A stretch of DNA of 64,000 nucleotides, taken from contig JAEBUN010000015.1 in NCBI GenBank assembly GCA_023014365.1, positions 62,001-126,000 on the forward strand, read 5' to 3'. The stretch is from Lepiota brunneoincarnata (taxonomy: Eukaryota; Basidiomycota; Agaricomycetes; Agaricales; Agaricaceae). Below the pieces are notes generated by a model. The model was not told the origin of the DNA and made no database searches. It saw only the letters and a list, made by a program, of their open reading frames with translations. The position numbers were made by a program, and so were the translations under genes. This document shows positions 18,392-60,637 of this stretch, in pieces; positions within the stretch are counted from its first letter, which is position 1, and each line of letters opens with the position of its first letter.

Positions 18392-18553
18392 AACGCTTGT
18401 CCCGGATTTCCAAACCGGAACACCCAACAATCACCGCAACGCAAGTATTCCCTTGCCGTCGCAGAAGTCGCATCTCAGATGCGCCATGGTCAATGATCTC
18501 GATCCTGAACTCCAACAAGAACTCCACTCCGCGCTAGCCGAGGACCTGGAGAT

Positions 18554-24122: not shown

Positions 24123-25664
24123 TCAACAGCTCTGTGGGCGGAGCCCGTGCAGCTGGTGTATATAAAAATGTGATCGGTTTCAGCACAATCCAAGACCATG
24201 CCTACTCCCAATTGAATGGAGTGGAGCTCTGCATCAGTGAGCAGAACTCTCCCTGCAGCCTGCCTGGCCTGCCTGACCAAGCACCCACCTGCAAACACGC
24301 AAGCTGCCGAAACAGCCTGCAGTCTCCTGCATGGCAGCTGGTGGATACCAGCCACTATGCAAGCAGATGACAGGTCGGCCTGCGCCCTCCGGATAGAGGC
24401 GTGCAATCCGTTGAGATGCTGTTGCTTCAAATCCCCCTCCGGATCAACGGTGTAAAGCATGAATTTGATCCGCTCCGAGAAGCGGTCCAAAAGTTGGAGA
24501 CCTGGCCTGTTCTTGTCCACGAATGGAATGAACGGCTCAGTAAGCTGCAGAAGTATGTTCTGCACCTCCATGAGGGCACTCTTCACCTTGGGCCAAAGCG
24601 CCAGGGTGAGAGATGAAATAGAGCAAGGGTGTGCTGGGGTGCTCCCCCTGAACTTGTGGCCCAGCAAGGGCTGAAGCAGATGATTTGCTGCAAGTGTGGC
24701 AACGCGGAATATCATTTGGGAAGCTAGCTTCTTGAGATGCAGCAGGAAGGGCAGACGGCCCACAAGGGCCTCTGCCCCCCCAGAGGGGGATGTGCAAAAC
24801 ACACCAATGATCCAATTAGTGGCGCGCTGCTGCATGGAGTTGAACATCTTGAGGATTCCCTTGTTATGGAAACCCTCATGATACCACATACGGAATCCAT
24901 ATGTGGCAATGGGAACCATGCAGGACCGTTAGAGGAGGTGCTTCTGATCAGGAAGCAGTCCCCAAGTTGAATTACCAAGCATCTCCATTGCTCCAACCAT
25001 GGAGAACACCTTGGTAGAATAGTAGCATACATGCTTGTGGAAAGTGAGAGCACAGTCAAAATAGAAACCCAAGTACTGCCAAAACAGCTTAGGTCTCAAA
25101 GGGGTGTCCCCCATATACAGATGGAAGCCCAGGTCAATGGGTGGGTTGGCATCCCTTGGGTTGTGAGAGAAGTGAAAGACCTCAGACTTGGTATGCTCAA
25201 GTGTGAGGCCAAAGGAGTCAAAGAGCTCTTGCATGCAGTGATAGGCCACCTGCAGGGCAAATACGTTGTCCTCCCAAGTTTTGGTCTGAACTATAAGGGT
25301 CCCATTGTCAACATATGACAGCATATCAACGCCAAGGCTGGGGGTCCTCTGGTAATAAAGATAAACCAGGGGGGCCAGATACAAGGCCAACAAGACTGGA
25401 GACAGAGCTGAGCCCTGCCCCACACCTACATCAGCCTGTCTGGGATCCTTTTTTTTTTTTTTTTTTTTATATCTCCAATTTATTACGTGGGCCGCGTAGG
25501 GAGGCCATGTGCAGCAACGTACTACAGTACAAACAACCGAGCCATACACTACAGGGTATCTGTACATACAATGCGTGACTGCAGATGTGGGCATGCATTT
25601 CCCCATGCCCAGGATGAAGCTGCCCTGAACAAATGAAGGCGGGAAGACAGCTACTGCCCAGTGC

Positions 25665-26967
25665 TGAAAAGGTGGAGAAACTTTTGTTGGTTTTAATATA
25701 GATAGTGGGCTTGTTTTCACTAAGCTTAGCCGCAATTCGATAAGCTTAAGCTAATACAAGTGGAATGAGATAGATAATGAACAGTTTCGTCTTTTAGGGT
25801 GTTCTGGGGGTGCGTTCTGACAGCGAAATTCAAGAGAGTAGTGTTTTTAGAGGTTAACAAACAGCCATTGAAGTTATCTTAGCCGTACGGTGCAACAATG
25901 AAAGGACAATCCCTGCCAATTCAAAGCGCTGGGTCTCTGGTCTCTAGTCTCTGGTCTCTGAACTCTGGTCTCTGTCTCTGTCTCTGTCTCTAGCACTCTG
26001 GAACTCTAAACTCTAAACTCTGGTCTCTGTCTCTGTCTCTGGGTTGGTCGACGACCGAAGAAATCACACTTAATGACGCACACTAAATAGCCCTCTGAAA
26101 CCGTTCTTGATCACGGCTCGCAGACTTGCATGTGGAAGTGGGGGTGAGACCTCTTGCTTCTTCACGAACAAGTGCGACTGTATTTATATTGTTTGGATAC
26201 ATACGAGAGATAGTAAATATGAAATAGAAAACAATAAGCTTAATTGTTACAGGCACTGTAGAACATTTTGGAAGGTTTGGCAGCATTTCTACCTCACCCT
26301 GGGTTATGGGTTTTTCTCTGATTAACGAATGGCAATCCAGCCAGACGTGTTCCGTGCTCGTCTGCATTATTCTGCGTCCACGCGAGCGCGTTAAGTTTCC
26401 AGATCAATTATGATCGAAATGTATAGTGGATGGACAATTCCTTGATCCGTTGTAATTAATCTCAGTTAAGTAGTATGCCGAAGTGCCGGGACCCCCAAAG
26501 CACTTGTTAATTAGGAGTCTTTGATATTTCTAGGGTTTTGGGCATCGGGTATTGCCTCCCAAACATTGGATGTTCCGTTCCGTGGTCCGGTCATCATTAT
26601 TGAACTCGCTATAGACGTAATACGCCTGCGACAGCCGCTAGGTACATTCTTTTATGTTCAAACGCATTCGGGTTCATCAGAAAACTGCTTGTAAGGTCCC
26701 TTGATGCGACCGGGGTATACTCGATAGGCTATGTAGAGCCCTGAATCCCTCCGGAGAGCGTTCTGATAGCTTGGTTCACTAAGCTTAGTGATAATGAGCT
26801 GGTTTGAACACTTCCGAGGCTTGAATATCCTTAGTTTGGTCGAACTGGCTACTACGGGATATAGTACCAATCCTCTATAGAGTTCTTTAATGATATAGCC
26901 AATGATTCTATGCAGAGAATCGTTCCGGAGTACGGAATTCAGGTATAGGCGTGAAATTGGCATATCA
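25665..26967 (-). repeat. LTR-RT-2 3' LTR
   Basis: 1,303 bp; on the element strand it begins TGATATGCC and ends CCTTTTCA. It contains a GTCTCT-rich microsatellite (about 25930-26042) and four TAAGCTTA palindromes at 25721, 25741, 26235 and 26780. The last lies in the 14-bp perfect palindrome CACTAAGCTTAGTG. Confidence 0.93.
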
Positions 26968-26980
26968 TCTCCCCCTAACC
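26968..26980 (-). promoter_or_regulatory. Polypurine tract of LTR-RT-2
   Basis: On the element strand GGTTAGGGGGAGA lies immediately before the 3' LTR start TGATATGCC. Position and composition fit the primer for plus-strand DNA synthesis. Confidence 0.7.
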
Positions 26981-27294
26981 AAATTGCTGACTGTCCTCAG
27001 TCATTATCTCCTTCAAATTCGCAGTATCTGAGTCTCTCTGATGTGCTCTATGGTCTAGAACGTTCACCAGCTTCGAGGGTAGTGCACTTTCGCTAAGCTT
27101 ATTTCAGAATGATGTCATGTCACCAAGTTTAAATGTATAGATCAACTTCTTGTCGTTATAGCTTAAATTTTTATCTCGTTATTGGGTCTTTTAAATGTCC
27201 CAAGGTCTCATTTCATCTCTTTCGTTCTCCCTCTCGCTTCTTACTCGTCTATCCTGCTCGCATACTCACTTTTTAACGCCCACTTCTATCAACA
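26981..27294 (+). promoter_or_regulatory. Upstream region of cargo gene 1
   Basis: These 314 bp between the LTR and the first ATG have no ORF of note. They contain one TAAGCTTA (27094-27101), an A/T-rich block near 27157 (TTATAGCTTAAATTTTTAT) and a strong pyrimidine-rich stretch (about 27215-27290), as often seen just upstream of fungal start codons. The adjacent LTR could also supply antisense promoter activity. Confidence 0.45.
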
Positions 27295-29323
27295 ATGGAC
27301 AGAAACACACGCAGCAGCAAACGTGCTCGCTACGAGGAGGACTCGGACTCTTCTTCCAGTAAGTAGAGTTTGAGTTACAGTTTTCTCCGTTTTCTTAACC
27401 TGTTTTCAGGCTACCCTGGGCCGAGCAACGCCTCAACGGCTTCCCAAGGCGCGCCTTCATCATTGATCGTGCAACGTAAGTCGCGTTTTCCCCTGTTCTT
27501 GTTGTCTTTACTTATGTTTTCTCTACTTTTAGGTCTCACTATTCGCCTCCCGGCGCGTTGCAACCTCCTATCTCAATGGGAACCACCAGCACTGCGTACT
27601 AGGAGAGCTAGAGGAGGGTGAGGAGCTCGAGGAGCTTGCGGAAATCGTCAGGTGGGTGTGGCAAGGACCCCTCCTCCACCGTACTCTCCGCCTCATGCAC
27701 CAACTCCTCCACCAGCCTCTCCCTTGTCCGCTCCAGTGCCAAGGCGCGTGATTTCCATCGCGTCGTTGTGCAATCCAACCAACGAGCGTTCTGCTGGATT
27801 TTCCGCAGAACCCTCGTCAGGTATCCCCGTTGGCGGGCCCTCTGGTGGATTGTCCACAGAGGCCTTGTCAAGTTTAATGTCGCTGCCCCCTCTTGCTGTC
27901 TCTCTGCGCTCCTTTGACAGTGAAGGCTCGCTGGTGCTCCCTCCCCTGGGTATTGCATCAGGTTCAGAGGTGCCGGGCCCTTCAACAAACCGCCCCTCCT
28001 CTCTCATAGCCTCTTCGACTGTTTCAACGCGTAAGCTTAGTCTTTTACAAGGTATATTTGTCCTTTCTGCTAACTTCCACTTTAGCACGTATCCCAGCTG
28101 CCCTTAAAGGAAAACAGAAGGCGAAACCATCGACACCGCCCCCTACACCTCTATTTTTGGCGAATTCAAACTCGCCATCGCGTTCTCCAGTCCCTGAGGT
28201 CTCTCAAGCCAACCTCTTTAAAATTTTTAGCTGGTCCTCGTCTCTGGATGGGCAACATGTGCTGGCTTCGCCTAGGTGCCCATCACCATCACCACCTCAC
28301 TTAGCTGGCGCTCCAGTCGCGTCTCCCGCAAGCGCTGTGGAGATTTCTCCTTCGCCAGATTTGGAGCTCCTTCTGGAGCCTTCACCTGCCCCTCAAGAAC
28401 CGACTTTTGTTTTTCAAGATGCGTTCTTAGCTTCTCCGACCCCCGTCCCTTCTCGTTTGCCTAGCCCGGTGGTTCCGGAGATCCCTCAAGAGTCCCCTCA
28501 TGCTGGCCCGTCGCGTCAACAACGTGTCCTTTCGTCCAAGAAGAGTTCCAACATGCGGACAAAGAAATACGTTCCCCGGGCTTGCGTTTGGCGCTCTGAG
28601 GCCAAAATTATTCGGGACCATGGATACCGGCACCCAGTCCCGCTCTTTTGTGAGGACTTTCCTAGGCTGCTGGCAGCTAGCCAGCTTTCGGTATGTTCTC
28701 CAAGTTTTTTCGTGGTTCCTTACTGACGGCTTTGACATCTGCTCCAGTACGTGCCACCTTGGCCTCGGTGTCCTTCTTGCGCTGCTTGTAAGTTGGAGTG
28801 CGAGCCTCTGGGCAAGGGTAAGAAGTGTCGCAGCTGCAACTTGTACAACTACCCTTGTACCTTTGCAGACCATCCCCGGGTTTCAGCCGGTGTTGTGAAC
28901 GCCCTGGTCACATCCTCACTGACCAGTGAATACCGTAAGTTTCTCTGTTCACTATTTTTCCCTTTTCTTATTCTCTTTATTTTTCTAGATCTGGCCGCGT
29001 TCGCGCGTGTTGTGTCCTCTAGCTTGGTCAGCCTGGAGGCAAACTGCGTCACTTACGAGGCTTCGGCGTTTCACCACCGCTGTGTAGTTTACCAATTCGT
29101 CCAGGAGATGCAAGCTACCAGGACTGCCTTGGATGGTAATGACATGGCTTTTGTAGAGATGGGTATGACCAACTCCCTTGAAGACGTCCGGGCGTTCTTT
29201 GAGTTCGCCAACAACTTTCCGGGGGTCCCGACATACGAGGAATTCGAGGAGCTCAAATCGCTTCTCTTCCTTGCTTTCCCGATGACTCAGGATCCGGAGT
29301 CTGTTCTAGAAGACCTTGAGTGA
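27295..29323 (+). CDS. Cargo gene 1: Zn2Cys6 zinc-cluster protein, spliced, antisense to gag-pol
   Basis: Proposed exons: 27295-27358, 27410-27475, 27533-27617, 27666-28030, 28086-28690, 28748-28934, 28989-29323, giving 568 residues in frame. Introns are 48-57 bp with GTAAGT-type donors and CTAAC/CTGAC branch sites. The 48-bp intron (27618-27665, GTGAGG...CAAG) is the weakest; if retained it gives a TGA at 27619. The N-terminus has a basic KRAR patch, followed by a Pro/Ser-rich region. The cluster at 28769-28858 fits C-x2-C-x6-C-x8-C-x2-C-x6-C (Cys403, 406, 413, 422, 425, 432), the spacing of fungal Zn2Cys6 DNA-binding domains, with a short helical C-terminus. No fungal-specific transcription factor middle domain is seen. 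A nuclear DNA-binding role is inferred. Confidence 0.75.
28769..28858 (+). other. Zn2Cys6 cluster coding segment of cargo gene 1
   Basis: The segment reads CPSCAACKLECEPLG and continues to a second CRSC...C half. Six of its seven Cys residues fit the binuclear zinc cluster spacing exactly; Cys409 is extra. Proteins of this class usually bind short dyad DNA sites, often as dimers. Confidence 0.8.
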
Positions 29324-30009
29324 TCTCTGCACCTAGTTTACTTCTTGGATGTAGTATATAATCTTGTCATGTATATACATCCCAATAGTCATCTTGTTGT
29401 TCCTTGTCTCCTACTGAGTTAAGCTAAACTGTTTCTGACTTTCTTGTCATCTCCTAAAGCTAAGCTAAAGACCTCCTGGGAGACTCCTAAGCTAGTTTAG
29501 GTTGCCAGTCACTTATATACTCATTATATGCCTCTCTGATCTATCAGTGATGTTTATTGACATCTCAGCGCGCCGTGACCCGCAACGTGTAGTGACCCGG
29601 TCATCCGTTCTGGTTTTCTTACAAGCCCGGACCCGAACCAGCCTGTACACGGTGTTTGCCGCGAAAAAGGTCGCATCAAACAAAACTGAAGCGCCACTTG
29701 CGCCACTTGGGGCCCATCTCCCCCTAGCCAAATTGAACTCGGTGCCCTCACCATTCCATCAGAATCCCTGTGCACACTGATAACCGCGAGACCCTGGCGA
29801 CATGTTACCTAATAAGGCAACTGTGGTTCAGCAAGTCTGTTGAAGGCTGGCTACTCAAGATTACAGGTTTCCTAGGCCCCTCAGGTCATAAGCTTAGGGT
29901 GGAGGGTGCTCTTCATCCACTCGTTATGATTCGTCATCACTGCCTATGGCCTTTTCTTATAAAAGTGAGGGAGCGACGCCTCATTCTAGCAGACACCCTT
30001 CACAAGAAA
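29324..30009 (+). other. Intergenic region between cargo genes
   Basis: 686 bp with no supported gene. It holds several near-copies of the dispersed motif (TAAGCTAA, CTAAGCTAG around 29420-29500), one exact TAAGCTTA at 29889, and a TATA-like TATAAAA at 29958-29964, 46 nt before the ATG of cargo gene 2. Confidence 0.55.
29958..29964 (+). promoter_or_regulatory. Putative TATA box of cargo gene 2
   Basis: TTATAAAAG lies 46 nt upstream of the start context AAAATGG at 30010. This suits a short 5' leader. Confidence 0.5.
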
Positions 30010-31179
30010 ATGGCTTCTTCTAGTCTGCTTATATTGAAGTGTTATCGGAGGATAATGAGGCTATCAAGCTTCATGTCAACCAGGACTACGTCTTCTGTAT
30101 CCGCAAGCTCTACGAAATTTACCAAAACAACTACCATTTGTCTTATGAGATGCCCGCGATCTATAAGGTGCTCTCTGAATGCTGTAGCCGCATTAATCAC
30201 GTTCATTCTGAAGAATCCCACAAATCCAGGACCGAAGAGGCTCAGAACCCATCGTCCACGACTGGCTCTACTTCCTCCAATGTTGCCGAAGGCTCTGCTG
30301 TCCCCAAACGCGTAAGCTTAGCGTTCTTTTGGCTCCAATCGTCTCCTCATGTATAAGCTTAGCCTCGCAAAGGTCGCAAGGCCCCTGTCTCTGCTGCTGT
30401 TGTGGTAGACACCAATACCGAGCTTGCTGAGAGTATGACCAGTGCTTCCAACTCCCAAGCAACCAGTGCTGATGCGGTAATATAGCTGCTTCTCAACCTA
30501 TTACATTGGCTGAGATAATCGCTCGTCTCCAGGACATGATGGTCGATGAGGAGGTCTTTCAAGCTATCATCGAAGAGGTTCGTGTAGTCTCGCCTTATCG
30601 CAAGCATCGTTTGTCTACCTCCGACGTGGTGCGCCAGCTCCACTCCCCCTAACCACTGATTCTGACTTCATCCTTCGCTAGGAGGCCATCAAAAAGTCCT
30701 CCTCGTCTAAAGGCACCGTCCGTCTTCTTCCCTATTGTCAAGTTCCCAATATGAACACTAAACACTGCTGTTATGCCCAGGCTGAACAGGTTCTAGCCAA
30801 AGCCAACGCCAATACTGCCAAGCGTGCCCGTACCGAGTCTGCTTCCGATGAGCGCACCTTCGCTGGCTTATCCGGTGGGCAATTTCTCACTTCTGTTTGC
30901 TAAGCTTAGTGGTTCTGACACTTGTTCCGGGCAGCTCGTTTGCTCCAGGAACTCCAAAACCTCCTGTCTTACTCTCGCGATGAGTACAAGTCCGAATCTC
31001 GCAGTGACAATGCTCGGTCTGTCAAATGCGACCTCAATTCGCTCAGCCGGGACTTCATTGAGGCTATTCCCTCGCTCGAAGCTAACTTAAAGAGGTTCCA
31101 ATTCCTTATTCAAGAGCGCATCCGTCTCAAAAGTCTTTTGCGCAACCTTTCCAACGTGAACAAGCCCTCCCCCGCTTAA
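30010..31179 (+). CDS. Cargo gene 2: unknown basic protein, spliced, antisense to gag-pol
   Basis: Proposed exons: 30010-30311, 30363-30476, 30533-30628, 30682-30717, 30781-30874, 30935-31179, about 295 residues. The 63-bp intron 30718-30780 is optional because it is also open when retained. In exon 1 the ATG frame (MASSS) and the body frame (AYIEVLSEDNEAIKLHVNQD) differ by one base near 30023, so this copy seems to carry a one-base deletion or starts elsewhere. Features are an N-terminal helical region with LHVNQDYVFCIRKLYEIY, a basic PKRPRKGRK patch across intron 1 (nuclear-localisation-like) and a C-terminal helical stretch. TAAGCTTA lies at both ends of intron 1, in the last intron, and over the TAA stop. 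I do not recognise the family. Confidence 0.6.
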
Positions 31180-31255
31180 GCTTAACGCTTTTACAGTCCC
31201 CAGGATAGTTTTCCTTCGATAAGTAGATAGTTCTGTCCACAATATCAGGTTTTTT

Positions 31256-34200
31256 CTATCCCTCCAACTCTTCTGGCTCCCATCTGTCACTAGGCTCATC
31301 CTCAGTAGTCTCCTCCAGGGTCTTCAGTCCCTCTGGCGACAGATCTAACAACTCTTGTAACTCCAGCGGCAACGGCATATGTTTTCTGGCTAAGTAGGGA
31401 ATTACTCTGAACGCCGCCACTTTATTCTGCCATACAGAGCCATCCAACTCTGCCAGGATATATGATCCTCCCTTCGATCTAGATATGACCACCATGGGTC
31501 CTAGATACCTGGGTTTCATCTTCCTGTCCGCTGAGCTCTCTATAGCTGTGTTTCTCACTAATACTAAATCTCCCGGGCCGAAGCGATAATCTTTTATCTT
31601 ATGCGCTGCTTGTCGTTCCATCTCCCAAGCCTTGCTAAGCTTAGTGTCCGAAACACGCTGACGCACCTCCTCAACATGCCAAACATGTTTTGCCAAAGCC
31701 TGAGCTTGGTATCCTATCAACTCGGCCGTGGTTAAGTACTTATTTGGTAGTTGTACTAGCCAAGTGGCCTCTTTGACATCCAGAGGTAGCGTCGGGTGCG
31801 CTCCGGTTACCAGAAAGTACGGGGAACACCCCATTCCTTTTCTAATGGTTATCCGATCTGCCCACATAACGTGCGGTAGGTGCCAATACCACTTTTTGAC
31901 ATCTCCATCTGTAGCTTTGTACAACATTTGCCGCACATCCCAGTGGGCTCTTTCAATAATCCTGTTTGCTTTGGAATTGTAAGGAGATATCATTACTCCT
32001 TTTATCCCATATTTTTCTTCCAGCCATCGGACAGCTTTCTTAAATGGAGAACCATTGTCCGTGACAATCTTCACTATACAGCCCCATCGGCAAATGATAT
32101 CTTCAAATAACCACTGCGCGATCGAACTGGCGTTCTCTTTTCTCAACACTTTTGCCTCCATCCAGGATGACAGTCCACACCTTCCATGCACAATATAACT
32201 ACACCCATTGGAACTTGGCGTCATATGTAGTGTGTCCACATGTAGCAATTGGAATATCGACGGCGTGGGCGTTACTATTGGCGGCGTCTCGATGATTGCC
32301 TTTTGTCGTTGCTGGCATAGATGGCATGATTGCACATACCAAGCTATGTCTCCTTCAACTTCTGGCCACCAGAACCTCTGCATTATAAGCTTAGTGGTTG
32401 CGTATATTCCCCTGTGTCCTAGGAAGTCGTGGCTGGCTCACAACATATACATATGTTGCTCCTTATCCACTACTAGCTGATGCTGACCGCTAGGGCTCAT
32501 CCTATACAGTCTCCCCTCTTCGTCCAAGAAGAAATGCTCCACCATATGCTTAAGCTTATGCAGATCTGGCTCATCCAAGCCTTCAGCTGCGCTACTGCCC
32601 CCTGTTTTCAGGTATTCCCTGACTTTGGGTATTCTTTTGTCCTGTATTCGCGCTGTATCTGTCCTGCGTGACTCATCATATGCTTCCTCTATCTCGGTCA
32701 ACTTTTCCTCTTCGAAATCTGGCACTAGCCTGACATCCGTCATTAAGCTTAGTACTTGTCGATGGTTTTCTGGACAGGCTGGGTCTTCTATAACCCTAAG
32801 CTTAGCCTGTTGTTCATCCAAGTACTCTTCCCGAGCTTGATCCAGCTCATACTCAAAATCATACACATCATGCGCCAGACCCTGGTAGAAGCCAGAGCGA
32901 CTGTCGATCTCATCAGAGAAGGCTTCCAAGGGTAACGGATCTGCAGCCCCCGGATCTTCTTTGATCAACTCGAACTCCTCTCCCTCGTCCTCGGATCCGT
33001 CATCAAAACAACGGGCTGTCTTATCACCGGGATAGTAACATCGTCTGGACAGTCCATCCGGCCCAAATGTCTTTCCTTCTTTGTGTACTAGCGTGAAGTG
33101 GAACAATCTAATGAAGTCTACCCAACGGTTTACAGTAGCATTCGGGAGTTTTCCTGGGTTGTTTAACATCCCAAAGAGAAACTTCGCGTCTGTTTCCACT
33201 ACTAGATTTCTCAATCCCCACAATAAATATTTCTCCTGTTCCAGCACCATTCTTAAGCCGCATAGCTCTCGCTTGGGCTGAGAATACCTCTGCTGTCTCT
33301 TGTCCAATAATATTGACCCAAACTTCACATAATGTATAAGCTTAGTGTCTTCTCCATCTCGCTGATATATGTAGTATCCCACCGCCCTCCATGAGGTATC
33401 CACGGCTACTACTATGGGTTGTTTACTCGAGAATTCGGGGTTCCTGGTCAGGAAACAGCGTTGAATCACTTCTTTCAGCTCCTGCTGCACTTTCCGTTCA
33501 TTTTCTCCCCATTCAAACTCTTGCCCTTTCTTAAGCTTTTCATATAGAGGTGCAGCAATGGCTATGAACTTCAGGATATGATTCCTGCAGCGCGTAGCTG
33601 TTCCTAGAAAACCCCTTAGCTCGGAAACATTCTCACAATCCCCCCATCTTAATATCTTCCCAATGGTGTCTGTGGCAGGCAACCGTCCTTTATAAGAGCA
33701 TTCAAAACCCACTACGGTGATTTCATCAGTGCAGATAGTCGTCTTGGGCCCAGAGAAGGTTCCTCCTATGTATTTCATCCTCTGTAGAATCCTATTGACC
33801 GTCTGCATGTGTTCCCATACAAATCGTCGGATCCCTGGGTTTTCTTTCAGCATCTCTTCCGTGCCATCTGGCAACTCATATCTAGTTTTGGGTCCTCTGA
33901 TAGGTACATCATCTATGTACGGCATCATGTATTCTGGTATCTCACTGGCCAGGATCGCTGTTACATCCTCATGAAATATAGGCACTGAATTGGTCCATCC
34001 CATGGGTAACATCACTAAGCGTAGCGCTCCAAAAGGCGTCTGGAACATTGTTAGGTCCCGAGACAACTTGGCTAACAGTCGTTCGTCATAGCCAACATAT
34101 AGATCCAGAATGCCTCCACAAGCTCTGCCTGCGAAGTGCATTGCCAAATCTTCCGTTGCTGGCAGCAGTCCTGAATGCGCTATCGTCACTTTGTTCAGCG

Positions 34201-35005
34201 GTTCCAAGCTGTGTACCAGTCTCAAACTTTTCCCATCTTTCTTCACCACACAGAACCATCTGGATCTATAGGATGAGTTTGACGGCTTGTATACACCAGC
34301 ACTAATCTTTCTTTTTATAATGGCACAAACTTCATCATAGATCACTGGTGGAATCGGAATGGGCTTCTCAACCCACGGAGTATGTTCTACCGTCGGTATC
34401 TCGATCGGCGGGAAGAAATCTTCCCTAAAACATCCCTTTTCCTTATCTGTCCAGGCGAATGCCTTTTCTTGAAGCATCATGATGTGGTGCATCAGCTTTC
34501 TTTCCTCTGGCCACAAGAAATCCCCTGCATGGGCTTTGTCCAGCTTAAGCTTACGCTCCTCCGTATATCTGCCTGTCGGGACAAACTCTGGAGGATGCAC
34601 GCTAAGCTCAGGCATTTCTGCCAGTGGGTCCCCTTTTATTTCTCGTTTTATCCTGAATCTCTCCGGTAGATCACCCAACACTGGCCTCACTTTTAAGGCT
34701 ACTGGTTTATATTTCTTCCCAGCCAGGCATTGTACCGTATCTTTGTCATCTTCTTCTGTTTCAAAGACAGTTATTCCCTGGTCCTCTGTGCCCTGCACAT
34801 TGGCTATGCGTCCTAGGCACAATAACGCCATCGCTTTATCTTCTTGTGGACAGTCCTCATCGTGTATGACTCGGTCAATGAACATTAGCTGTAGCTCGGC
34901 CTCTGAGAAGCTTCCTTTTGCTAAGCTTAGTGTTTGTGCAACGACAGGGCCCTTCTCATCATCATAGTCTATTATACAAGCCACCTCTCCTTGTCCCTCA
35001 GTCAA
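31256..35005 (-). pseudogene. pol: LTR-RT-2 Pol: RT, RNase H, integrase (one TGA)
   Basis: A single frame of 1,250 codons, interrupted only by TGA 32438-32440 where a basic residue is expected before [16 protein letters not shown] has SRWFCVVKKDGKSLRLVHS, ILDLYVGYDER and the active box PYIDDVPIRG (about residue 365). RNase H follows: D in VAVDTSW, E in KRELCGL, D in VETDAKFL. The integrase has the zinc motif [10 protein letters not shown] in HVDTLHM, D in VTDNGSPF and E in RIIERAHWD. The start shown is the first TTG-type codon; translation probably enters from upstream. It ends 76 bp from the convergent cargo gene 2. Functional apart from the TGA, as far as can be read. Confidence 0.88.
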
Positions 35006-35067
35006 CTCATCGAGGTTTCTTGAAAATTTTGACTGTTTTCCCTAAGCTTAGGAGGATTACACTCTCC

Positions 35068-36120
35068 TCAAGCATAAGTTGGTAACACAGCCCTTTCTCT
35101 GGTGTTTGGGTCCGTAATAACCAAGGTTTGCTCGCCACTGGCGCTATTCCTGACTTCGCTAGCCATCATTACATCAAAAGGTCGTCCCAGGAGTACTTGA
35201 TACGTGGGGCTACGAACGATGTGAACTTGCAAATAGATTGTGACTCCCCCGCAGGTAAAGCCTACATTCTTTGCCAATCCACAAGTCTTTTCAACCTGCC
35301 CATTCGCACTCTGCAAATTTATCATAGTATCTGGGTCCCAAGAAACTTGACATGCAATCGCCGCTTCCTGACTCATGGAGACGATCTGTGACCTGCTATC
35401 TAGCAAGGCCTCTTCCTGCCGAATCCCATTTATCAGAGTTGGCACTACTCTCAACGGCTCGCATTCTTTTGCAATAAACACTTGTCGTCCCCTGTCTCTT
35501 CGGGGTAGTGACTCCAAGTACTGCATGATTGGATCCTGAGCTACCCAGGCTTGGGTTGCCAAGCCTTCTCGGAGCACCGTATCATACTTCCGAGGACCAT
35601 CTGCTAGCTCCATTATCATGACTTGTACTGGCCCACTATTAATCTCTATATCTTCTGTATCATCGTCCCCAGGCCCTACTCCTGCTATTAAGCTTTGACT
35701 CGTGGGTACCCGTTTTCTCATAATGTGCTCTCTATAAGCATTCCTGTATATCGGTGACAATGCCAAGAGTTCTCCATGCGATACTGAGGCTTCTCGCTTC
35801 AATACCCTGCTGAGTACTTCCTCAACATCAACATTCCTCTCTATAGGGGCCTGGTGCTTATACGCAGGCTCTTTCTTGGATGATTCCATCCTTCTGACAG
35901 GCAGCGGTGGTACCTCAACGACCAGGCACAGTGGTTTCACATCCTTATATGGTAATTCTCCTGCTGCGGCACGCATTGGTTTCTCCGTTGTCTGCCCTAT
36001 TTCCTCATTTTCTGATTCTTCTGATCGCTCGGAATCCAACGCATCCTCAGGAGTCTGTCCTCTGGCGAAGGCGACCTTCTTCTTCAGAGCCGGCTCCTTC
36101 CTCGAACCCTTTAGAAACCC
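35068..36120 (-). CDS. pro: LTR-RT-2 protease region, reached by -1 frameshift from Gag
   Basis: The frame continues from the slippery site through GFLKGSRKEPALKKKVAF and TPEDALDSERSEE to TGA 35068-35070. The aspartic protease loop reads LLDSRSQIVSMS near 35400, where the family has D-S/T-G, so Gly is replaced by Arg; this is a single G-to-A change and probably inactivates the enzyme. The later hydrophobic strand YQVLLGRPFDVM is the usual second half of the fold. Pol lies in another frame after a 60-nt gap that contains one TAAGCTTA, so how Pol is expressed is unclear. Confidence 0.7.
   Translation of the reverse strand, partial: GFLKGSRKEPALKKKVAFARGQTPEDALDSERSEESENEEIGQTTEKPMRAAAGELPYKDVKPLCLVVEVPPLPVRRMESSKKEPAYKHQAPIERNVDVEEVLSRVLKREASVSHGELLALSPIYRNAYREHIMRKRVPTSQSLIAGVGPGDDDTEDIEINSGPVQVMIMELADGPRKYDTVLREGLATQAWVAQDPIMQYLESLPRRDRGRQVFIAKECEPLRVVPTLINGIRQEEALLDSRSQIVSMSQEAAIACQVSWDPDTMINLQSANGQVEKTCGLAKNVGFTCGGVTIYLQVHIVRSPTYQVLLGRPFDVMMASEVRNSASGEQTLVITDPNTRERAVLPTYA
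36111..36120 (-). promoter_or_regulatory. -1 ribosomal frameshift site G GGT TTC, next to gag stop
   Basis: The last gag codons are TCG GGT TTC TAA. The heptamer GGGTTTC (36114-36120 on the minus strand) fits X XXY YYZ in the gag frame, and a -1 slip leads directly into the open protease frame. The GC-rich palindrome GAGCCGGCTC lies about 18 nt downstream, but I cannot judge whether a pseudoknot forms. Confidence 0.65.
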
Positions 36121-38072
36121 GACTCCGAGTTCCTAGTCTTCACGCCACTTCTGGTGTCCAAATACTGGCTTGCCGAGGGCGTACCATCCATCAAACTGCT
36201 AAGCTTAGCCTGTATCTGGGCCAATTGCTTGGCCAAAGACTGTATTTCGACGTTATCCTCCTTCCTGGTCATAAGCTTCACCTTTGGGGCACTCCCAGCA
36301 TGGATGGCAGCTGTCTCCAACATTTCCATGTGCTGCTTCAGATGGCGGACTTCTTCTTCCGCTGGTGACCTTTGGTTTTCTGACCTCGGGAACGCTCTCT
36401 GTGCAAACACCGCTGACGTTGGCACTTGCGGTAACTCAGGCTCAACCTCCAGCAGTTCTGGTATCTGAACGAAGAGTTGTCCCTTTGTCGCATAGTACTT
36501 TGCCACTTTCTCTTTAATAGGCCCTTCTCCTCGAGGGATACTCGAGCCATCTCCCATATATATTTTGTTCCCTTCGACTCTAATTCGGCCAGCTTGCTTA
36601 TCCGCCTCCATGTCCGGGCAGAATAACCAACTATGCCCTAATAACCAGCAGTAGAAACACTTGCGGTCGGAAAGCGACCCTGCCGACCTACTTCCGGTAT
36701 TCCTCTGAGCGTGATTATAACCGGCATGATTATGTCCGTCTTTCGCCAAGCTCTCTAAGTATGATTTTAAGGTATGCCCCTGGATATTCATGAGGTCCTT
36801 AAGCTCAGCGAGGCCACCTGCCATCTGCGAGACTTCATCCTGAAATTTCTGCTTTAAGCTTTGCAGCTCTCGCTTTACTACCGGGTCATAAGTCCCTGTT
36901 CTGGATGTCGCGGGTGGATGGCTCATCGATGCCGAGTTTACCGGCCTCAAATCCTGATGAAGGGATCGCATAAGTGTTTTGCCAATCGAAATTTCGACGG
37001 CTTTATCCATGACGATCCTCCAATCATAGGGGTCCTCTTCGCGTAAATCCTTTGCAGTCAGTGCTGACCCATCGCTTGCGGTTCTACGCGCCCCGGTGAT
37101 CGCTAATCTCGCATTGAGTACATCCTGGAACACTGAGTCCAGTGCGCTCGTAAATAACCTGACTAGTTCTCGGTTCGAGACTACTGCCGGCGACTTCAGA
37201 CACTTCTCTGCTTCGAGAATGAATCGCCTTTTAAAGTCCAAGACTTTATGCTTCTCATTCATCACAATGCCTCTACTCTCTGCGCAGAGTTCCCTCAATC
37301 GTTGCACTGAGCCCTGCTCGGCTGCCACAGTCTTGGGATACTCTTTCTTCAATCTCTCCACAAAGTCTGTCCAGCTTCCTGCTGGGAACTCCGCAAAACT
37401 CATCCACTCTTCACGGATATCCTGGTCCACATATGACACTGCCCAATTTATCCTTTCTGCATCGTCCGTCGTCTTCGTTATTGTGAAGAGCCGTTCAAGC
37501 GTCCAGAGATAATTGCTCGATGTCTGTGGTTTTGATGCATCCCATCTGGGAGCATTATTGCTAAAGGGAATTGGCATACGCTCGTGTCCCATTTTACTAG
37601 CTGTAGTCATCGTAGACGGCGTGGTTTGGTTTGTCTGTACAGTTGGTGTTGACTGTGATATCTGTGGTACCGTAGAGGCACCAGGAGGGTTCGTATGAAA
37701 TGAGTTTTGGTTTGTAAACGCTAAGCTTAGCATAGGAATGGTCTGACTGTCCTGGATTTCGGTGTGCAGAATATGCGCTATGTTGCGAGCTGAGGCTGGA
37801 AGCCTTATAGTAATTCTGGGAACAGTAGAGGTCGACGGTGCGACTTCTCTTGATACTGCAACCACTGAACCACTCGCTGTGTTCGCAGCTAAAGAGTTAA
37901 CGGGATCTTTTCGCTTTTGAGAGGTACTAGTGGTGATGAGGCCTTCAGAACCTTCTGGACGATTGGAATTCCGAGTAGTTCTCTGTTTTGGGGGGTCGAC
38001 CTTCCTGAGACTGTTCTCAAAGGACGTGTTGGGTGACTTTACGGTCTTTGCTTGAACCTTTTTCTGCTTCAC
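36111..38072 (-). CDS. gag: LTR-RT-2 Gag (653 residues)
   Basis: An intact frame starting about 85 bp inside the 5' LTR. A Ser/Thr/Pro-rich basic N-terminus is followed by a capsid-like helical domain (from APRWDASKPQTSSNYLWTLE to the LFTSALDSVFQD region), a linker, and one CCHC knuckle (CFYCWLLGHSWLFC, about residue 470). A C-terminal region with a heptad-like segment (EEEVRHLKQHMEMLETAA) follows. It ends with TAA 36111-36113 immediately after a slippery heptamer. TAAGCTTA occurs in frame twice, as MLSLAF and AKLSSL. The TTG or ATG start is uncertain. Confidence 0.85.
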   Translation of the reverse strand: MKQKKVQAKTVKSPNTSFENSLRKVDPPKQRTTRNSNRPEGSEGLITTSTSQKRKDPVNSLAANTASGSVVAVSREVAPSTSTVPRITIRLPASARNIAHILHTEIQDSQTIPMLSLAFTNQNSFHTNPPGASTVPQISQSTPTVQTNQTTPSTMTTASKMGHERMPIPFSNNAPRWDASKPQTSSNYLWTLERLFTITKTTDDAERINWAVSYVDQDIREEWMSFAEFPAGSWTDFVERLKKEYPKTVAAEQGSVQRLRELCAESRGIVMNEKHKVLDFKRRFILEAEKCLKSPAVVSNRELVRLFTSALDSVFQDVLNARLAITGARRTASDGSALTAKDLREEDPYDWRIVMDKAVEISIGKTLMRSLHQDLRPVNSASMSHPPATSRTGTYDPVVKRELQSLKQKFQDEVSQMAGGLAELKDLMNIQGHTLKSYLESLAKDGHNHAGYNHAQRNTGSRSAGSLSDRKCFYCWLLGHSWLFCPDMEADKQAGRIRVEGNKIYMGDGSSIPRGEGPIKEKVAKYYATKGQLFVQIPELLEVEPELPQVPTSAVFAQRAFPRSENQRSPAEEEVRHLKQHMEMLETAAIHAGSAPKVKLMTRKEDNVEIQSLAKQLAQIQAKLSSLMDGTPSASQYLDTRSGVKTRNSESGF

Positions 38073-38138
38073 AGGTGAATGGCAGGCCAGTGTCCAAGTC
38101 TTTTGGTGTTTGTCTCATAAAATTCAACTGAAAACCCC

Positions 38139-38155
38139 CCTCGTGGTGGGCTCCA
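38139..38155 (-). other. Primer-binding site of LTR-RT-2
   Basis: Two bases after the 5' LTR, the element reads TGGAGCCCACCACGAGG. This would pair with a tRNA 3' end finishing in GGGCTCCA, including CCA. Its position and TGG start are those of a minus-strand primer site. The tRNA identity cannot be fixed from here. Confidence 0.65.
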
Positions 38156-38157
38156 GA

Positions 38158-39467
38158 TGAAAAGGTGGAGAAACTTTCGTTGGTTTTAATATAGATAGTG
38201 GGCTTGTTTTCACTAAGCTTAGCCGCAATTCGATAAGCTTAAGCTAATACAAGTGGAATGAGATAGATAATGAACAGTTTCGTCTTTTAGGGTGTTCTGG
38301 GGGTGTGTTCTGACAGCAAAATTCAAGAGAGTAGTGTTTTTAGAGGTTAACAAACAGCCATTGAAGTTATCTTAGCTGTATGGTGCAACAATGAAAGGAC
38401 AATCCCTGCCAATTCAAAGCGCTGGGTCTCTGGTCTCTGGTCTCTGGTCTCTGGTCTCTGAACTCTGTTCTCTGTCTCTGTCTCTGTCTCTAGCACTCTG
38501 GAACTCTAAACTCTAAACTCTGGTCTCTGTCTCTGTCTCTGGGTTGGTCGACGACCGAAGAAATCACACTTAATGACGCACACTAAATAGCCCTCTGAAA
38601 CCGTTCTTGATCACGGCTCGCAGACTTGCGTGTGGAAGTGGGGGTGAGACCTCTTGCTTCTTCACGAACAAGTGTGACTGTATTTATATTGTTTGGATAC
38701 ATACGAGAGATAGTAAATATGAAATAGAAAACAATAAGCTTAATTGTTACAGGCACTGTAGAACATTTTGGAAGGTTTGGCAGCATTTCTACCTCACCCT
38801 GGGTTATGGGTTTTTCTCTGATTAACGAATGGCAATCCAGCCAGACGTGTTCCGTGCTCGTCTGCATTATTCTGCGTCCACACGAGCGCGTTAAGTTTCC
38901 AGATCAATTATGATCGAAATGTATAGCGGATGGACAATTCCTTGATCCATTGTAATCAATCTCAGTTAAGTAGTATGCCGAAGTGCCAGGACCCCCAAAG
39001 CACTCATTAATTAGGAGTCTTTGATATTTCTAGGGTTTTGGGCATCGGGTATTGCCTCCCGAACATTGGATGTTCCGTTCCGTGGTCCAGTCATCATTAT
39101 TGAACTTGCTATAGACATAATATGCCTGCGACAGCCGCTAGGTACATTCTTTTATGTTCAAACGCATTCGGGTTCATCAGAAAACTGCTTGTAAGGTCCC
39201 TTGATGCGACTGGGGTATACTTGATAGGCTATGTAGAGCCCTGAATCCCTCCGGAAAGTGTTCTGATAGCTTGGTTCACTAAGCTTAGTGATAATGAGCT
39301 GGTTTGAACACTTCCGAGGCTCGAATATCCTTAGTTTGGTCAAACTGGCTACTACGGGATATAGTACCAATCCTCTATAGAGTTCTTTAATGATATAGCC
39401 AATGATTCTATGTAGAGAATCGTTCCGGAGTACGGAATTCAGGTATAGGCGTGAAATCGGCGTATCA
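38158..39467 (-). repeat. LTR-RT-2 5' LTR
   Basis: 1,310 bp, about 2-3% different from the other LTR. Nearly all substitutions are C/T or G/A, mostly at CpG. The main length difference is in the GTCTCT microsatellite (about 38421-38543). All four TAAGCTTA copies are conserved in place. Confidence 0.93.
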
Positions 39468-39619
39468 GCGCACAGCGTGGGAACCAAACTGGGGCAAGGT
39501 CCCCCCCCTTATCAGGGGTTAGGGGTCAATTCCCACATAAATCCCTACACACCGCCTGAAGGCGGCAGGGGAATAACCAACGCCCCAGCCCAGTCCCAAC
39601 CGGGCGCCAGGCAGAGCCA

Positions 39620-42600
39620 CTAGCCAACACCCCCCAGGGGGGGCCCAGCCCTCTCAGTGAACATGAATGCCATCAGCGACACCTTGAGGAAAGCAATGAG
39701 GGCCTCAACTGTAGCCAAGACCCCTGCCATGGAGTGCCTAGGACAGCTCCAGAACATGTGCTTGCAAGTCTCCTCCCAAAATCCACAGTGACAGGAGTAA
39801 TCCTCCTGTGGGAAAAAGCACCTCTGATAGCTCCCTATCAGTGCGTGATTAAGAATAGCACATGTCATCTGGGCCATTACTGACACCGAGTGAGCGTGTG
39901 GGATCCAGGCCCCACTGTGGAGATACGTGGGCTGCAGGGGACAGTTATCATCCCTGGCGAGTTGGAGGAAACCGTGCCTGCAATGGTCAGGATCCTGGAA
40001 CAAATCGATCCAGCAGTCCTGACATGAATGTACTTTCTCCTTGCAAAGGTAGTCAAGCAAGGCCCAGGGACGAGCCCCTACCCCAACAGGAGGCAACGAC
40101 CGTGCAAAGTTGTGCACCTGAGTGTGGGAAGGCCACTTTGCATGCAAAGGGACCTCCCAGAAATGGACCAAGCAGGCCAGACCTCCAGCAAACCACCCAG
40201 TAAGAAGGTGACAGACCACCAAGGAATGACCCTGGGCGGAGTGCACTGATGGGTCCACCGCCTGCCTGGCCGAGGCCATCAAGTCCATGAACAAGGCAAG
40301 ACCGGCGGTGCCCTTGACAGTAACTGCCTTGGACACTGCCAGCTGGATGGCGAAAAGCTTGGCCTTGGGGGCTGTAACCTTCCCCCCTGGAAGCCAGACC
40401 GCATGGACACAGTCCAGCCCCTGGAAAACCTGGGTGGCCGAGACCGCCTGGTGGACCTGGCAGGGCGGCAGACTCACATCCATCGCCACCACCAGAACCC
40501 CTGGATTGGCCTGTGCCTGGGCAAGAACCCGGTCGAGAGCTGCAATGTGGGCCATAAGGGCATCCTCTGCCCCCCAGTTGTATGAGTGGAAGTGAACCCT
40601 CCCCAGGTACACATCCAAGAGATGACACCCTGGCCAAGCCTCCAGCGCAACGGCATCAAAAGGCCCAGCGAGGACAGCAAGATGCAGGTTAGTGTTGACA
40701 ACAGGCCCCTTCACCTTGGTCAACTTGTGGGGAGGGAGCCTGGCTATGGACCGGACATGAGACCGGAGATCACTGCTGTAGCCCCAGCCAAGGAGGGCAC
40801 GAATGGGGTGGCCCGGAGCAAGCATGGCATACCGCAACTCAGCACGATCATGAAGCTTCCAGAGATGAAGATGAATGGGGACCAGGCCTGCAATGGCCCT
40901 GACCCCCCCATCGGGTGACATCCTAAAGGTGCCGGTGATCCAGAGTGCAGCCCAATGCTGCATCCAGTGAAGGTGGTCCAAAGTGCCCTTATACCTGGCG
41001 CCCTGGTAATACCACAAGCGGAAGCCATACATGGTGATAGGAACCATGCATGACCAATACAGGAGGTGCATCTGGTCTGGCAGAAGTCCCTGGACAGAAT
41101 TACCAAGCATCCCCATGGCCTTGACCATGGAAATAGCCTTGGTGGAATAGAACCGAACATGCTCCTTAAATGTAAGGGCACGATCGAAATAGAAACCTAA
41201 GTACCTCCAATAGGTCTTGGGCTGAAGAAGGGTAGCGCCAGTGAACAGGGGAAACCCCAAGTCCACCAGGGGATTCTCACTGGAACGATCCCATGAGAAA
41301 TGGAAGAGCTTGGATTTGTCGTGTTCCACGACGAGTGTGAACCGAGTGAAGGTGTCATGGACTACCTTGTAAGATCTGCAGAGCAGGACGCAGTTAGCAT
41401 CCAGGTCCCAGGCCTGCACCACGATGGTACTATCATTGACATAAGACAGGAGTGAGAGGCCCAGCTAAGGGAGCCCCCATTCAATAATATACATGGCCGG
41501 AGCCAGATAGAGGCCAGACAGGACAGGTGAGAGGGTAGAACCCCTGGCCCACCCCCACCTCCGCCTGGAACAGTTCAGACAGGAAGGAATTCCAGGCATA
41601 GCTGGTAAACCTTCCTGTGAGATATCAAGCAAAGAACCTGCCAATGCAAGGGGAAAACCCCTGCCAGGCAAGAATCGTGAGAAGCATCCTATGGTTCAGG
41701 GATGGGAAGAACTGTGCAATATTGAAGGCGAGAACACTTGTCTTCAACCCGTGGGCCCACCCAGCATGGACCAAGTACACAAGGTAGGCACCAGCATCCT
41801 CGGTGGACCGCTGGATCACACCACTGAACTGGTTCAGATGGAACATGCTGAACTTGACAGCCTCAAACTGCAAGCAGTGCAAGATCATTTTCTCAATAAG
41901 TTTACTGAGAGTATGAGAAGGACGATCAGTCTGAACGCCTTCAGGGTAGCATAGGAGGGCTTGCCAGGCTTCGGTATGATAACCGACATGCTCTCCTTAA
42001 AGTGACGAGGCCAATGCCCGCACTCCATGCAGGCATCAGTGATCCAACAGACCAAACAGGTAACTGTTGGGCCCGCCAGAATGGACTTGAGGTGCGTCCA
42101 CATGACATGGTCCAGACTGGGTGAAGATAAGGAGGAGCACGCGCACAAGGCCTCGTGCAACTCCAGATCAGAGAAGACCAGCCACTCCCACGATGGGAGT
42201 GGATTGATCTGATCAAGAACACCAACATCAATCGGACAATTGTTGGCAGCGTTGTAGGAGCCATGGAGCCCTTCCAAGAGCTCCTCGAGAGTGTTGCAGG
42301 GGCAGTCATGATAGTGGATTGCCTTGCAGGAAGGTAACTTGCATGCCCTGACCCAGTCCATCAGATCCCAGGGGCACTTGTTAGTAGAAGCAATCTCCTC
42401 GATGTGCTCATCAAAGAACTTGCGCTTGGCAGCCTTCCAGGTCCACTTAAATGTGCGAGCGTCCTCCTGGTCCCAAGACCAAGAATACACCATGTAGGTG
42501 TGAGAGCACTCGTCATCCCACCACGGTTTAGACTGTGAGATGATGCATATCTCCTTGGAGTGGGCAAGCCACGCCCCGGAGAAGACCACAGAGATAGCCA

Positions 42601-43504: not shown

Positions 43505-46500
43505 TGGGGTAAGCGAGGTTGACGTGGTGGGGAAGGAACCCTTACTGGAGAATCATACTGATGTTTGATCCACCCCCGATCAAAGTGGTGGGCCCAGAAT
43601 GGGTAGGCTAAAGCCGATGCAGCATGAGTGCCACTGCAGTTCACACACACAGGGGTGTGGGGGTAGGGATAGTCAGTGGGGGTAGGCGCAATGGGTGGCC
43701 TATGGTTGGGCTGGCCCTTGCAGCATGAAGCAAACACCCAATGGTTAGTCAGGGAGTGCAGACCGCCGCAGTGCGAGCAGCAGATAGCCTCGCACCAGCA
43801 GGCTAGAGAGGGGTGCCCCCACTTCCAGCAGTGCTGGCAGAGGGGGACACTGGGGTTGGCCTTTGCAGGAATGATCCTGCATGGAGTGCCGTTGATAGTG
43901 ATGACTTGCCGAGAGACGGTCTTTACATTGGAGCCCTGTTGAGAGTCCCAGATTTCAAAGAACACAGTGGCTGTTGATACGCCGATTTCATGCCTATACA
44001 TGAATTCCATACTCCGGAACAATTCTCTACATAGAATCATTGGCTATATCATTAAAGAACCCTATAGAGGATTGGTACTATGTCCCATAGTAGCCAGTTC
44101 AACCGAACTGAGGATATTTGAGCCTTGGAAGTGTTCAAACCAGCTCATTATCACTAAGCTTAGTGAACCAAGCTATCAGAATGCTCTCCGGAGGGATTCT
44201 GGACTTTACATAGCCTATCGAGTATACTCTGGTCACATCAAGGGACCTTACAAGCAGTTTTCTGATGAACTTGGATTTGTTGGAACCTAAAGAATGTACA
44301 TAGCGGCTGTCGCAGGGGTATTACGCCCATAGCAAGCCCAATAATGATGACCAGACCACAGAACGGAACGTCCAACGTTTGGGAGGCAACACCCGATGCC
44401 CAAAAACCCTAGACATATCAAAGACTCATAATTAACAAGTGCTTTGTGGGTCCCGGCACCTCAGCATACTGCCTGACTGAGATTAATTACAATGGATCAA
44501 GGGATTGTACATACGCCATACATTCCGATCATAATTGATCCGGAGGCTTAATGCGCTCGCGTGGATGCAGAATAATGCAGATGAGCACAGAACACATCTG
44601 GCTGGATTGCCATTTGTCAATCAGAGAAAAACCCATAACCCAGGGCAAGGTAGAAATGCTGCCAAACCTTCCAAAATATTCCGCAGTACCTGTAACAATT
44701 AAGCTTATTGTTTTCTATTTCATATTTACTATCTCTCGCATGTATCTAAACAATATAAATACGGTCATGCTTGTTTGTGGAGAAGCAAGAGGTCTCACCC
44801 CTGCTTCCACACGCAAGTCTGCAAGCCATGATCAAGAACGGTTTCAGAGGACTATTTAGTGTGCATCATTAAGTGTGATTTCTTTGGTTGTCGACCAACC
44901 CAGAGACAGAGACAGAGAACAGAGTCCAGAGTTTAGAGTTCCAGAGTACTAGAGACAGAGACAGAGACAGAGACAGAGAACAGAGTTCAGAGACCAGAGA
45001 CCAGAGACCAGAGACCAGAGACTAGAGACCCTGCGCTTTGAATTGACAGGGATTGTCCTTTCACTATTGCACTGTACAGCTAAGATAACTTCAACAGCTG
45101 TTTGTTAACCTCTAAAAACACTATTCTCTTGAATTTCGCTGTCAGAACGCACCCCCAGAACACCCTAAAAGACAAAACTGTTCATTATCTATCTCATACT
45201 ATTTGTATTAACTTAAGCTTATTGAATTTCAACTAAGCTTAGTGAGAACAAGCCATTTATCTATATTAAAACCCACAAATGTTTCCACCTTTTCACCATG
45301 TCAGCAGCCCTCGAGTTCTTGACAATGCGCAGCCTGGTGGCCAGCACAAAATACTCAGACCATACAGAGTGCTGCATGGCCTCAACAACCCTGTCCAATG
45401 TGAGCCAGGGCTAACCACCCCGGAACATAGGCGCATCAAGGAGCTTAAGGTAGCTCTTCGACCAAGGAAGGTTCACGTCCACGATGGCCTGAGGCCAGTT
45501 TGCGTGGACCGCATTCCTGATGGTGCCAATGTCCAGTTTGCTGGGCACGGCGGTGGTGTAGCAAGCTACATGCACATCTATCTGCTGGACCCGCTCGATA
45601 CAAACGATCAAGCCTGCAGAAGCTAGAGCAGTGGCAGCCACTCAATGAATTTCCGCGCAGATGATGGGACCCAGGTTAACTGGGAGACCACCCCCCACGA
45701 GGGTGAGCATGACCTGCTTGCGTGAAGGTCCAGATGTGGTCATCCTAGGCTTGGGAGTCTTGGGTGGCTGCTGGGCAGCTGCTGCCTGCCGATGAAATGA
45801 GACTACCTTGTGGGAAGGCAGCCCCGGAAGAGCACACGCCAGGTTGATGAGACCCAACAGGGAAGAGACAGCCACAGCTGCATAGGAGTGGGGCAGGGAA
45901 TGAGGCTTGGTAGCCAGGTTGATGCATGGTGGGGGGAGACCAGGGGACAGCCTGGCAGCCAGCCGAGCCCTGTCTGCTGCTGACAGCGGGGGAATGAGGG
46001 TGGCATGTGCTGCCCTGATGTGAGATGGTTGCTGCCCCGCCCTGGGGTTACAGGCCACTAGGACAGGATTGCCCAACCATGTGTAGGCCAGGTTCCTGAA
46101 GAATTGCTGGGTAGGTGCCAGATGTGCATACCCTGCAGGAAAACGCCCCAAATCCTCTGCCGGTGGGGGAGGTAGGGGGAGGTTACCCTCCACAGGGGGG
46201 CGGTGAGAGCCACCAGCCTGCAAAGCACCATCCACCTCCATAGGAGCCATGGAGGCCCTAGAAGAAGGGGCATGCATACTGCCCACCACCCCAGCAGGAG
46301 CAGCAGCTGCAGCAGAGTCCAGCCGTTTGCCCTTCCCTTGCACAGGGGTGGGGGTGCTTGGCCTGGACGGACCATACACCTCAGAGGCCCACTCATGGAG
46401 CCTATGGGTGTGCTTGCCCTCCATAAAGGGGATATTGTCCCAGTCATGCTCCTCCACCTTGTGGAAGAGCCTGGCCAGGGAATGGGCAACCTCTGTGCTG

Positions 46501-60633: not shown

Positions 60634-60637
<4 letters not shown>

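Follow-up and report, generated by a model that had tools for sequence, protein, structure and literature searches.

A sharp palindromic word dispersed over a fungal Ty3/gypsy retrotransposon and its candidate element-encoded reader

A palindromic 8-mer, TAAGCTTA, is strongly over-represented along the whole length of a Ty3/gypsy-type LTR retrotransposon of Lepiota brunneoincarnata (here the family A element). It is intact wherever we could align it in close copies. The same genome also holds a sister family (family C) in which this word is almost absent and another is enriched. We propose that TAAGCTTA is recognised by a sequence-specific DNA-binding protein of the element's own, most likely the product of a predicted antisense gene (gene 1), and that binding would be used for anti-silencing. 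Judged from sequence patterns, this reading is probable, with modest confidence. An earlier note on this DNA had suggested a dispersed cis signal, with four candidate roles side by side: protein binding, packaging, silencing escape and chromatin. The general idea is supported by the excess of the word in LTRs, coding sequence and elsewhere in the element, by the lack of change in its aligned copies, and by the difference from family C.

The window, by which we mean the whole stretch of 64,000 nucleotides analysed, contains 31 TAAGCTTA. The earlier note had counted 26 exact copies within the element (25665-39467), four in a related solo LTR, and a single one in the remainder; our recount gives the same numbers, with the four at 44155, 44700, 45214, and 45234 and the last at 55555. 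Dinucleotide shuffles of the whole window (n = 100) contain 0.64 on average and 4 at most. Because the two LTRs duplicate four sites, we worked with a non-redundant set of 22 TAAGCTTA in 12,493 bp (one LTR counted), a density of about one per 570 letters. The shuffles that the note had named as a possible refutation leave the enrichment standing: dinucleotide shuffling of the element with one LTR yields a mean of 0.17 and a maximum of 2 against the 22 observed, and codon-permuting shuffles of the gag-pol ORFs a mean of 0.085 and a maximum of 1 against 9 (200 shuffles each). An 8-mer count, also proposed there, places TAAGCTTA first among the 8-mers of the element. The nine gag-pol sites code for Lys-Leu or Ser-Leu, as the note had said, in two frames.

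The word is sharp, because its 24 one-mismatch neighbours sum to just 22 occurrences in the element. Across the genome (55.6 Mb, 95 contigs) there are 5,370 TAAGCTTA, compared with 842 occurrences of its reversed control and 419 of TTAGCTAA, a control palindrome of the same composition. The other Ty3/gypsy element of the window has no palindrome among its 12 top words of each length. A directional extension had also been claimed, and a G indeed follows TAAGCTTA directly at 18 of the 26 sites (16 of the 22 in the non-redundant set, where seven sites have the right G without a left C and one has the reverse). The orientation is weak.

The element was classed as Ty3/gypsy by its pair of LTRs with TG...CA ends and by the order protease, reverse transcriptase, RNase H, and integrase; Pfam profiles for RNase H and H2C2 score above their cut-offs and those for RVT_1, rve, and the protease below. 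All these parts lie on the minus strand. The left LTR, with its TG...CA ends (25665..26967, 3' relative to gag-pol), carries TAAGCTTA at 25721, 25741, 26235, and 26780, and the right LTR (38158..39467, the 5' one) at 38214, 38234, 38735, and 39280. The two are 97.2% identical, and transitions make up 29 of their 30 substitutions. The gag-like ORF (36111..38072; sites at 36200 and 37722) was assigned by position and gave no Pfam gag match. It is followed by the protease ORF (35068..36039; PF13975 just below cut-off), with no site inside and one at its junction (35043), and by the ORF for reverse transcriptase and RNase H (32438..35005), with sites at 32551, 32744, 32797, 33337, 34546, and 34922. 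The integrase ORF (31256..32383; H2C2 above cut-off, rve just below) has one at 31636, and another lies just beyond it, at 32386. The solo LTR (43966..45250, plus strand, opposite in orientation to the element) shares 87-91% identity with the element's LTRs in long aligned arms up to 44974 and has all four LTR sites, from whose places its end at 45250 was estimated. A search with the integrase returned 993 relatives, and the named organisms among the 120 matches listed are agaric fungi (Cyclocybe, Mycena, Leucoagaricus, Armillaria); the viral_contigs search returned zero relatives.

In the remaining 4.3 kb, between the integrase and the left LTR, we predict two multi-exon genes on the plus strand, antisense to gag-pol. 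One TAAGCTTA lies upstream of gene 1 (27094..27101) and another between the two genes (29889..29896). Gene 1 (27295..29323) is the candidate binder of TAAGCTTA; its predicted exon stretches 27673-28030, 28086-28690, 28748-28934, and 28989-29323 join into a single open frame of 494 aa, counted from 27673, downstream of the start and the earlier exons. The 5' splice site of its predicted intron at 28031..28085 overlaps the TAAGCTTA at 28032. Gene 2 (30010..31179) has sites at 30313, 30354, 30901, and 31177. By inspection, the first two overlap the 5' and 3' splice sites of a predicted intron (30312..30362), and the last supplies the predicted stop codon through its own TAA. Overall, 13 of the 22 sites fall within an LTR or the gag-pol ORFs and the others elsewhere, including between genes. 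The earlier description of a word present in LTRs, coding sequence, introns, and intergenic DNA holds for all but the introns, where it stands as far as the predicted introns do. The flanking sequences of the 22 sites are unrelated to one another.

The plus-strand exon at 28748..28934 of gene 1 encodes a cysteine cluster, C-x2-C-x6-C-x8-C-x2-C-x6-C. The spacing rule for Zn2Cys6 (GAL4-type) domains is C-x2-C-x6-C-x(5-12)-C-x2-C-x(6-8)-C, and the six cysteines are so spaced in 33 of the 35 family A loci (clades A and B) that cover the exon; in the other two (L080 and L082) the frame is shifted. The profile of the domain, PF00172, scores 9.3 bits in the window copy and higher, 18.9 and 16.7 bits, in two others, with a curated cut-off of 21 that none of the gene 1 cluster sequences reaches. 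Its E values in two copies are 0.0017 and 0.0082, and five of seven cluster sequences match at E ≤ 1. Five of the seven also match zf-ChsH2 (best E 5e-5, just above its cut-off). Pfam searches with ORF pieces of genes 1 and 2 returned weak sub-threshold matches only, a PDB sequence search with one cluster sequence returned none, and two protein-database searches revealed no gene 1 homologue at E ≤ 0.001. Between the two gene 1 clades, dN/dS is 0.04-0.07 (dS 0.32-0.82; two exons), which indicates strong purifying selection on the protein. Within clade A, where changes are few, the ratio is higher (0.17-0.39), and in one pair it is 1.95 on seven changes, one synonymous and six other.

The earlier note had asked whether family members carry the word and whether its positions are conserved beyond neighbouring synonymous sites. 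We aligned 57 of 60 loci to the window, the three left out being the window itself; these are the top-scoring copies, in which older copies are under-represented, and four pairs of loci overlap by 1.2 kb, so that 32 motif cells are counted twice. Close copies of the element do carry TAAGCTTA, intact where aligned; the more distant family C is nearly without it. Among positions that 15 loci or more cover, 0 of 1,880 motif cells are changed, compared with 6,897 of 139,767 other cells. With no coverage threshold, none of 2,048 motif bases is changed; 39.1 changes would be expected from trinucleotide context. Since the copies are related, we prefer the figure per position: with at least 25 loci, none of 64 motif positions is variable, against 940 of 4,645 others (Fisher P 8e-7), or 156 of 761 when nearby positions are taken for comparison (P 1e-6).

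We took 17 further copies for the sites of the reverse transcriptase, and in the 16 that aligned, at 3-12% divergence, all 70 scored instances of TAAGCTTA are intact (the copies left 15 of 85 possible instances uncovered). The site at 28032, in the predicted intron, is unchanged in 36 of 36 loci (32 distinct copies), with a flank that differs by 17%. At one LTR site, searched genome-wide with exact flanks, TAAGCTTA is changed in 6 of 326 cases and the neighbouring 8-mer in 15 of 335, a difference that is not significant (Fisher P 0.07). A mismatch-tolerant LTR search found 583 places, and the 100 matches listed were all perfect, and so uninformative on decay. In the aligned copies, C-to-T differences reach 12% at CpG, 3% at CpA, and 2% at other C; this excess at CpG is the kind of footprint that methylation or a RIP-like process leaves, and would be expected of an element methylated or mutated by its host.

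Family C (C1 and C74) was reached through integrase matches of 72-73% identity in the same genome. It has a single TAAGCTTA in 15.4 kb (0.30 expected), and its enriched word is TAGNTAAC (GTTANCTA), which is not fully palindromic. There are 17 TAGNTAAC in family C, with 1.90 expected and a maximum of 6 in 60 shuffles, compared with one in family A (1.12 expected) and two in the rest of the window (1.75 expected). Seven lie in coding ORFs (0.95 expected), a number matched by none of 300 codon shuffles. By piece, the gene 1 region has none, the sequence upstream of gene 2 one, gene 2 with the 3' part three, the stretch from reverse transcriptase to integrase four, protease with gag five, and an uncertain flank four. 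The assignment of that flank (L083) as a family C LTR was unconfirmed (it does not match L085), but the enrichment stands without it, the five remaining pieces having 13 sites in 13,118 bp. Twelve of these 13 internal sites point the same way (P 0.003).

TAGNTAAC was picked after a dyad scan of family C. In a first scan (gaps 0-8), it or its parts came top with 3+3 and 3+4 letters, and two unrelated dyads outranked it with 4+4. In a second one (gaps 0-4, low-complexity dyads dropped) it was top in all three settings, and of 100 shuffles for each setting 0, 1, and 1 attained the best score. Its conservation, over a set of four regions of which one (L088) did not align, falls short of significance (changes in 1 of 133 core bases and in 210 of 9,104 others). 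This second word is less secure than TAAGCTTA.

The gene 1 homologue of family C is 26% identical over 175 columns (tblastn E 6e-5 against a 5.5 kb piece). Its diverged cluster only nearly fits the Zn2Cys6 spacing, with x7 in two loops, and PF00172 gives no match to the exon. Family C also has a stretch resembling gene 2 (52% over 31 aa, E 9e-6). When the C-terminal piece of this homologue was searched against the genome, none of the 13 matches lay at the listed places of family A gene 1; the search pointed to two further gene 1 relatives, near C5:111193 and C6:110841 (32-35% identical). The homology of gene 1 between families A and C, suggested by the tblastn match, the cluster, and the position, is weak. 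The association of a different word with a diverged gene 1 is an observation of moderate strength, made in one family only.

The comparison with family C also bears on how sites come and go. In a codon alignment of the two families, 4-6 of the 8 bases are different at each of the nine family A coding sites, mostly with a change of amino acid, which indicates that the sites were gained singly since the families separated, or lost singly in family C. Identity between the families is 11 of 33 at site codons and 952 of 1,782 elsewhere, and 223 of 5,000 random placements equalled or undercut the former; the coding sites seem to have arisen or been lost at fairly tolerant residues. Among the 57 family A loci, none has an aligned TAAGCTTA that is absent from the window. 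Two clade B copies of gene 1 (L062 and L082) have one extra TAAGCTTA at an alignment gap near 29441-29467 of the window, which carries at 29420, close to this extra site, the one-mismatch word TAAGCTAA. The extra site is a case of slow turnover of TAAGCTTA sites.

In the mechanism that we favour, the product of gene 1 would bind TAAGCTTA through its Zn2Cys6-like cluster, probably as a dimer because the word is palindromic. The sites along the whole element would let the protein single out the element's own copies, and once bound it would keep their chromatin open or unmethylated, in a VANC-like manner. The expression of gene 1, its binding to TAAGCTTA, the dimer, and the anti-silencing outcome are steps that we infer. 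Gene 1 is the leading candidate because it has a Zn2Cys6-like cluster, is kept within the family, and differs between families as the word does; gene 2 could be the binder instead. Anti-silencing is favoured because of the analogy with VANC and the CpG mutation footprint.

An element-encoded binder might also serve another purpose, such as transcriptional self-activation, control of copy number, or the steering of integration to existing copies. This shares all the evidence of the anti-silencing reading, and a related LTR does lie nearby in the window. Sites spread over the body of the element suit an effect on its entire chromatin better than promoter control, which is not decisive, and we consider such other purposes possible, if on the unlikely side. 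It is unlikely, by our estimate, that TAAGCTTA is instead bound by a transcription or chromatin factor of the host, which the element exploits as a many-site enhancer, a boundary, or a tether. A sharp palindrome found in both LTR and internal DNA would fit such a factor, but dispersal over the coding sequence of pol would be unusual for an enhancer, and in the same host family C, with a single TAAGCTTA in 15.4 kb, is enriched in another word.

We give very little credit to a signal at the RNA level, either a splice-site consensus (GTAAGC / TTAG) or a palindromic loop for RNA dimerisation or packaging. TAAGCTTA is self-complementary and, by inspection, overlaps predicted splice sites at 28032, 30313, and 30354. 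However, these copies sit in transcripts antisense to gag-pol, more than half of the sites (13 of 22) are in an LTR or the gag-pol ORFs with others between genes, and TAGNTAAC is not a full palindrome. The sites in predicted introns and the non-palindromic TAGNTAAC of family C together argue for recognition at the DNA level by an element-encoded factor, over an RNA signal or a host factor. Least credible of all is a mutational artefact, in which TAAGCTTA resists mutation or spreads by duplication or gene conversion: the word lacks CpG, the most mutable context, and the 6 of 326 changed LTR words against 15 of 335 neighbours, a difference short of significance, would be unexpected under selection on mostly inactive LTRs, but 39 changes were expected after context correction and none was seen, the flanks of the 22 sites are unrelated, and those same six altered LTRs show that the word can mutate and is not simply immune.

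If the anti-silencing reading is right, it would offer a function for the antisense genes, hitherto unexplained, that lie between pol and the 3' LTR, and it would mean that selection writes a DNA-binding word into protein-coding sequence, the codons of pol included. Gene 1 and TAAGCTTA would form a directly testable protein-DNA pair. More broadly, LTR retrotransposon families of this agaric fungus might each carry an antisense Zn2Cys6-like gene and a private word that change together, each unsilencing its own copies only; we put this generalisation forward tentatively, as somewhat short of probable.

To our knowledge, the best-described transposon with a private word on its own DNA is the VANC/VANDAL system of plants. 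The available part of its description presents VANC proteins as sequence-specific anti-silencing factors that bind the word of their own VANDAL, a group of MULE DNA transposons of Arabidopsis; the VANC21 word, YAGTATTAY, is dense, in one orientation, and family-specific, and VANC6 uses a different one (PMC5735166). The family A element is similar, on that description, in having a dense short word in its own copies that is rare in other TEs, an orientation, and another word in a related family (PMC5735166). The element-encoded binder is shown for VANC, whereas it is inferred here, and VANC sites are described as mainly non-coding and often in tandem repeats, whereas 9 of 22 TAAGCTTA are in coding ORFs and have unrelated flanks (PMC5735166). 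Family A also differs in being a fungal LTR retrotransposon with a Zn2Cys6-like gene. The likeness is one of way of working, and we do not claim membership among the VANC proteins.

Boty-like elements of Botrytis reportedly carry an antisense gene, brtn; compared by description only, they resemble family A as fungal LTR retrotransposons with an added antisense gene. In the plant Ty3/gypsy elements Retand (TRP28) and Grande (gene23), additional antisense ORFs lie between pol and the 3' LTR, the same place as in family A, and may likewise encode a DNA-binding or nuclear product, according to the portions of the two accounts used here (PMC11963269, PMC7264820). Their domain is different, and family A is fungal and has two predicted multi-exon genes; those portions mention no dispersed target word for TRP28 or gene23 (PMC11963269, PMC7264820). 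Transposon-encoded TET/JBP dioxygenases of fungi have been suggested to counter host C-to-T hypermutation or methylation; they sit on DNA transposons and Helitrons, the part of the report used here naming no retrotransposon carrier, and their counter is enzymatic, unlike the one proposed for family A (PMC12730594). Searches of open-access literature brought up no comparable system. If our reading is correct, family A would be a second case after VANC/VANDAL, in another kingdom and transposon class and with a different-looking protein, and would point to self-recognition as a recurring strategy of transposons.

The two clades of gene 1, the predicted plus-strand gene of the family A element that is a candidate binder of the motif, are separated by a dS of 0.32-0.82 (L062 and L082 versus L032 and L040, all genomic loci holding family A copies), whereas the RT of the sampled copies differs from that of the window by merely 3-12%. 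This discrepancy suggests that the gene 1 region has been swapped among elements through recombination.

By inspection, the motif also coincides with signals of gene 2, the other predicted gene antisense to gag-pol: the copy at window 31177-31184 provides its predicted stop codon, and two further copies (30313 and 30354) overlap the 5' and 3' splice sites of an intron predicted in this gene. The element is flanked by GTGC (25661-25664) and GCGC (39468-39471), which could, with some uncertainty, represent a 4-bp target duplication altered by one CpG-type transition. The LTR contains a microrepeat of CTCTGTCTCTG type (25948-25991).

A second Ty3/gypsy element lies on the plus strand (16862-22326), with gag, RNase H and a chromodomain; its top words (12 per length) include no palindrome. 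The ORF at 5847-8426 is of LINE type: it has a reverse transcriptase and, scoring slightly short of the cut-off, an endonuclease. ORFs that look similar, and are putatively of LINE type too, lie elsewhere, e.g., at 13191-15350, 39620-43153, 48950-51671 and 56766-61571.

Searching the host genome (G000) with a C-terminal piece of gene 1 from family C, a related family enriched in a different word, revealed distant relatives (32-35% identity) at C5:111193-111528 and C6:110841-111086. These are perhaps further families, each with its own word.
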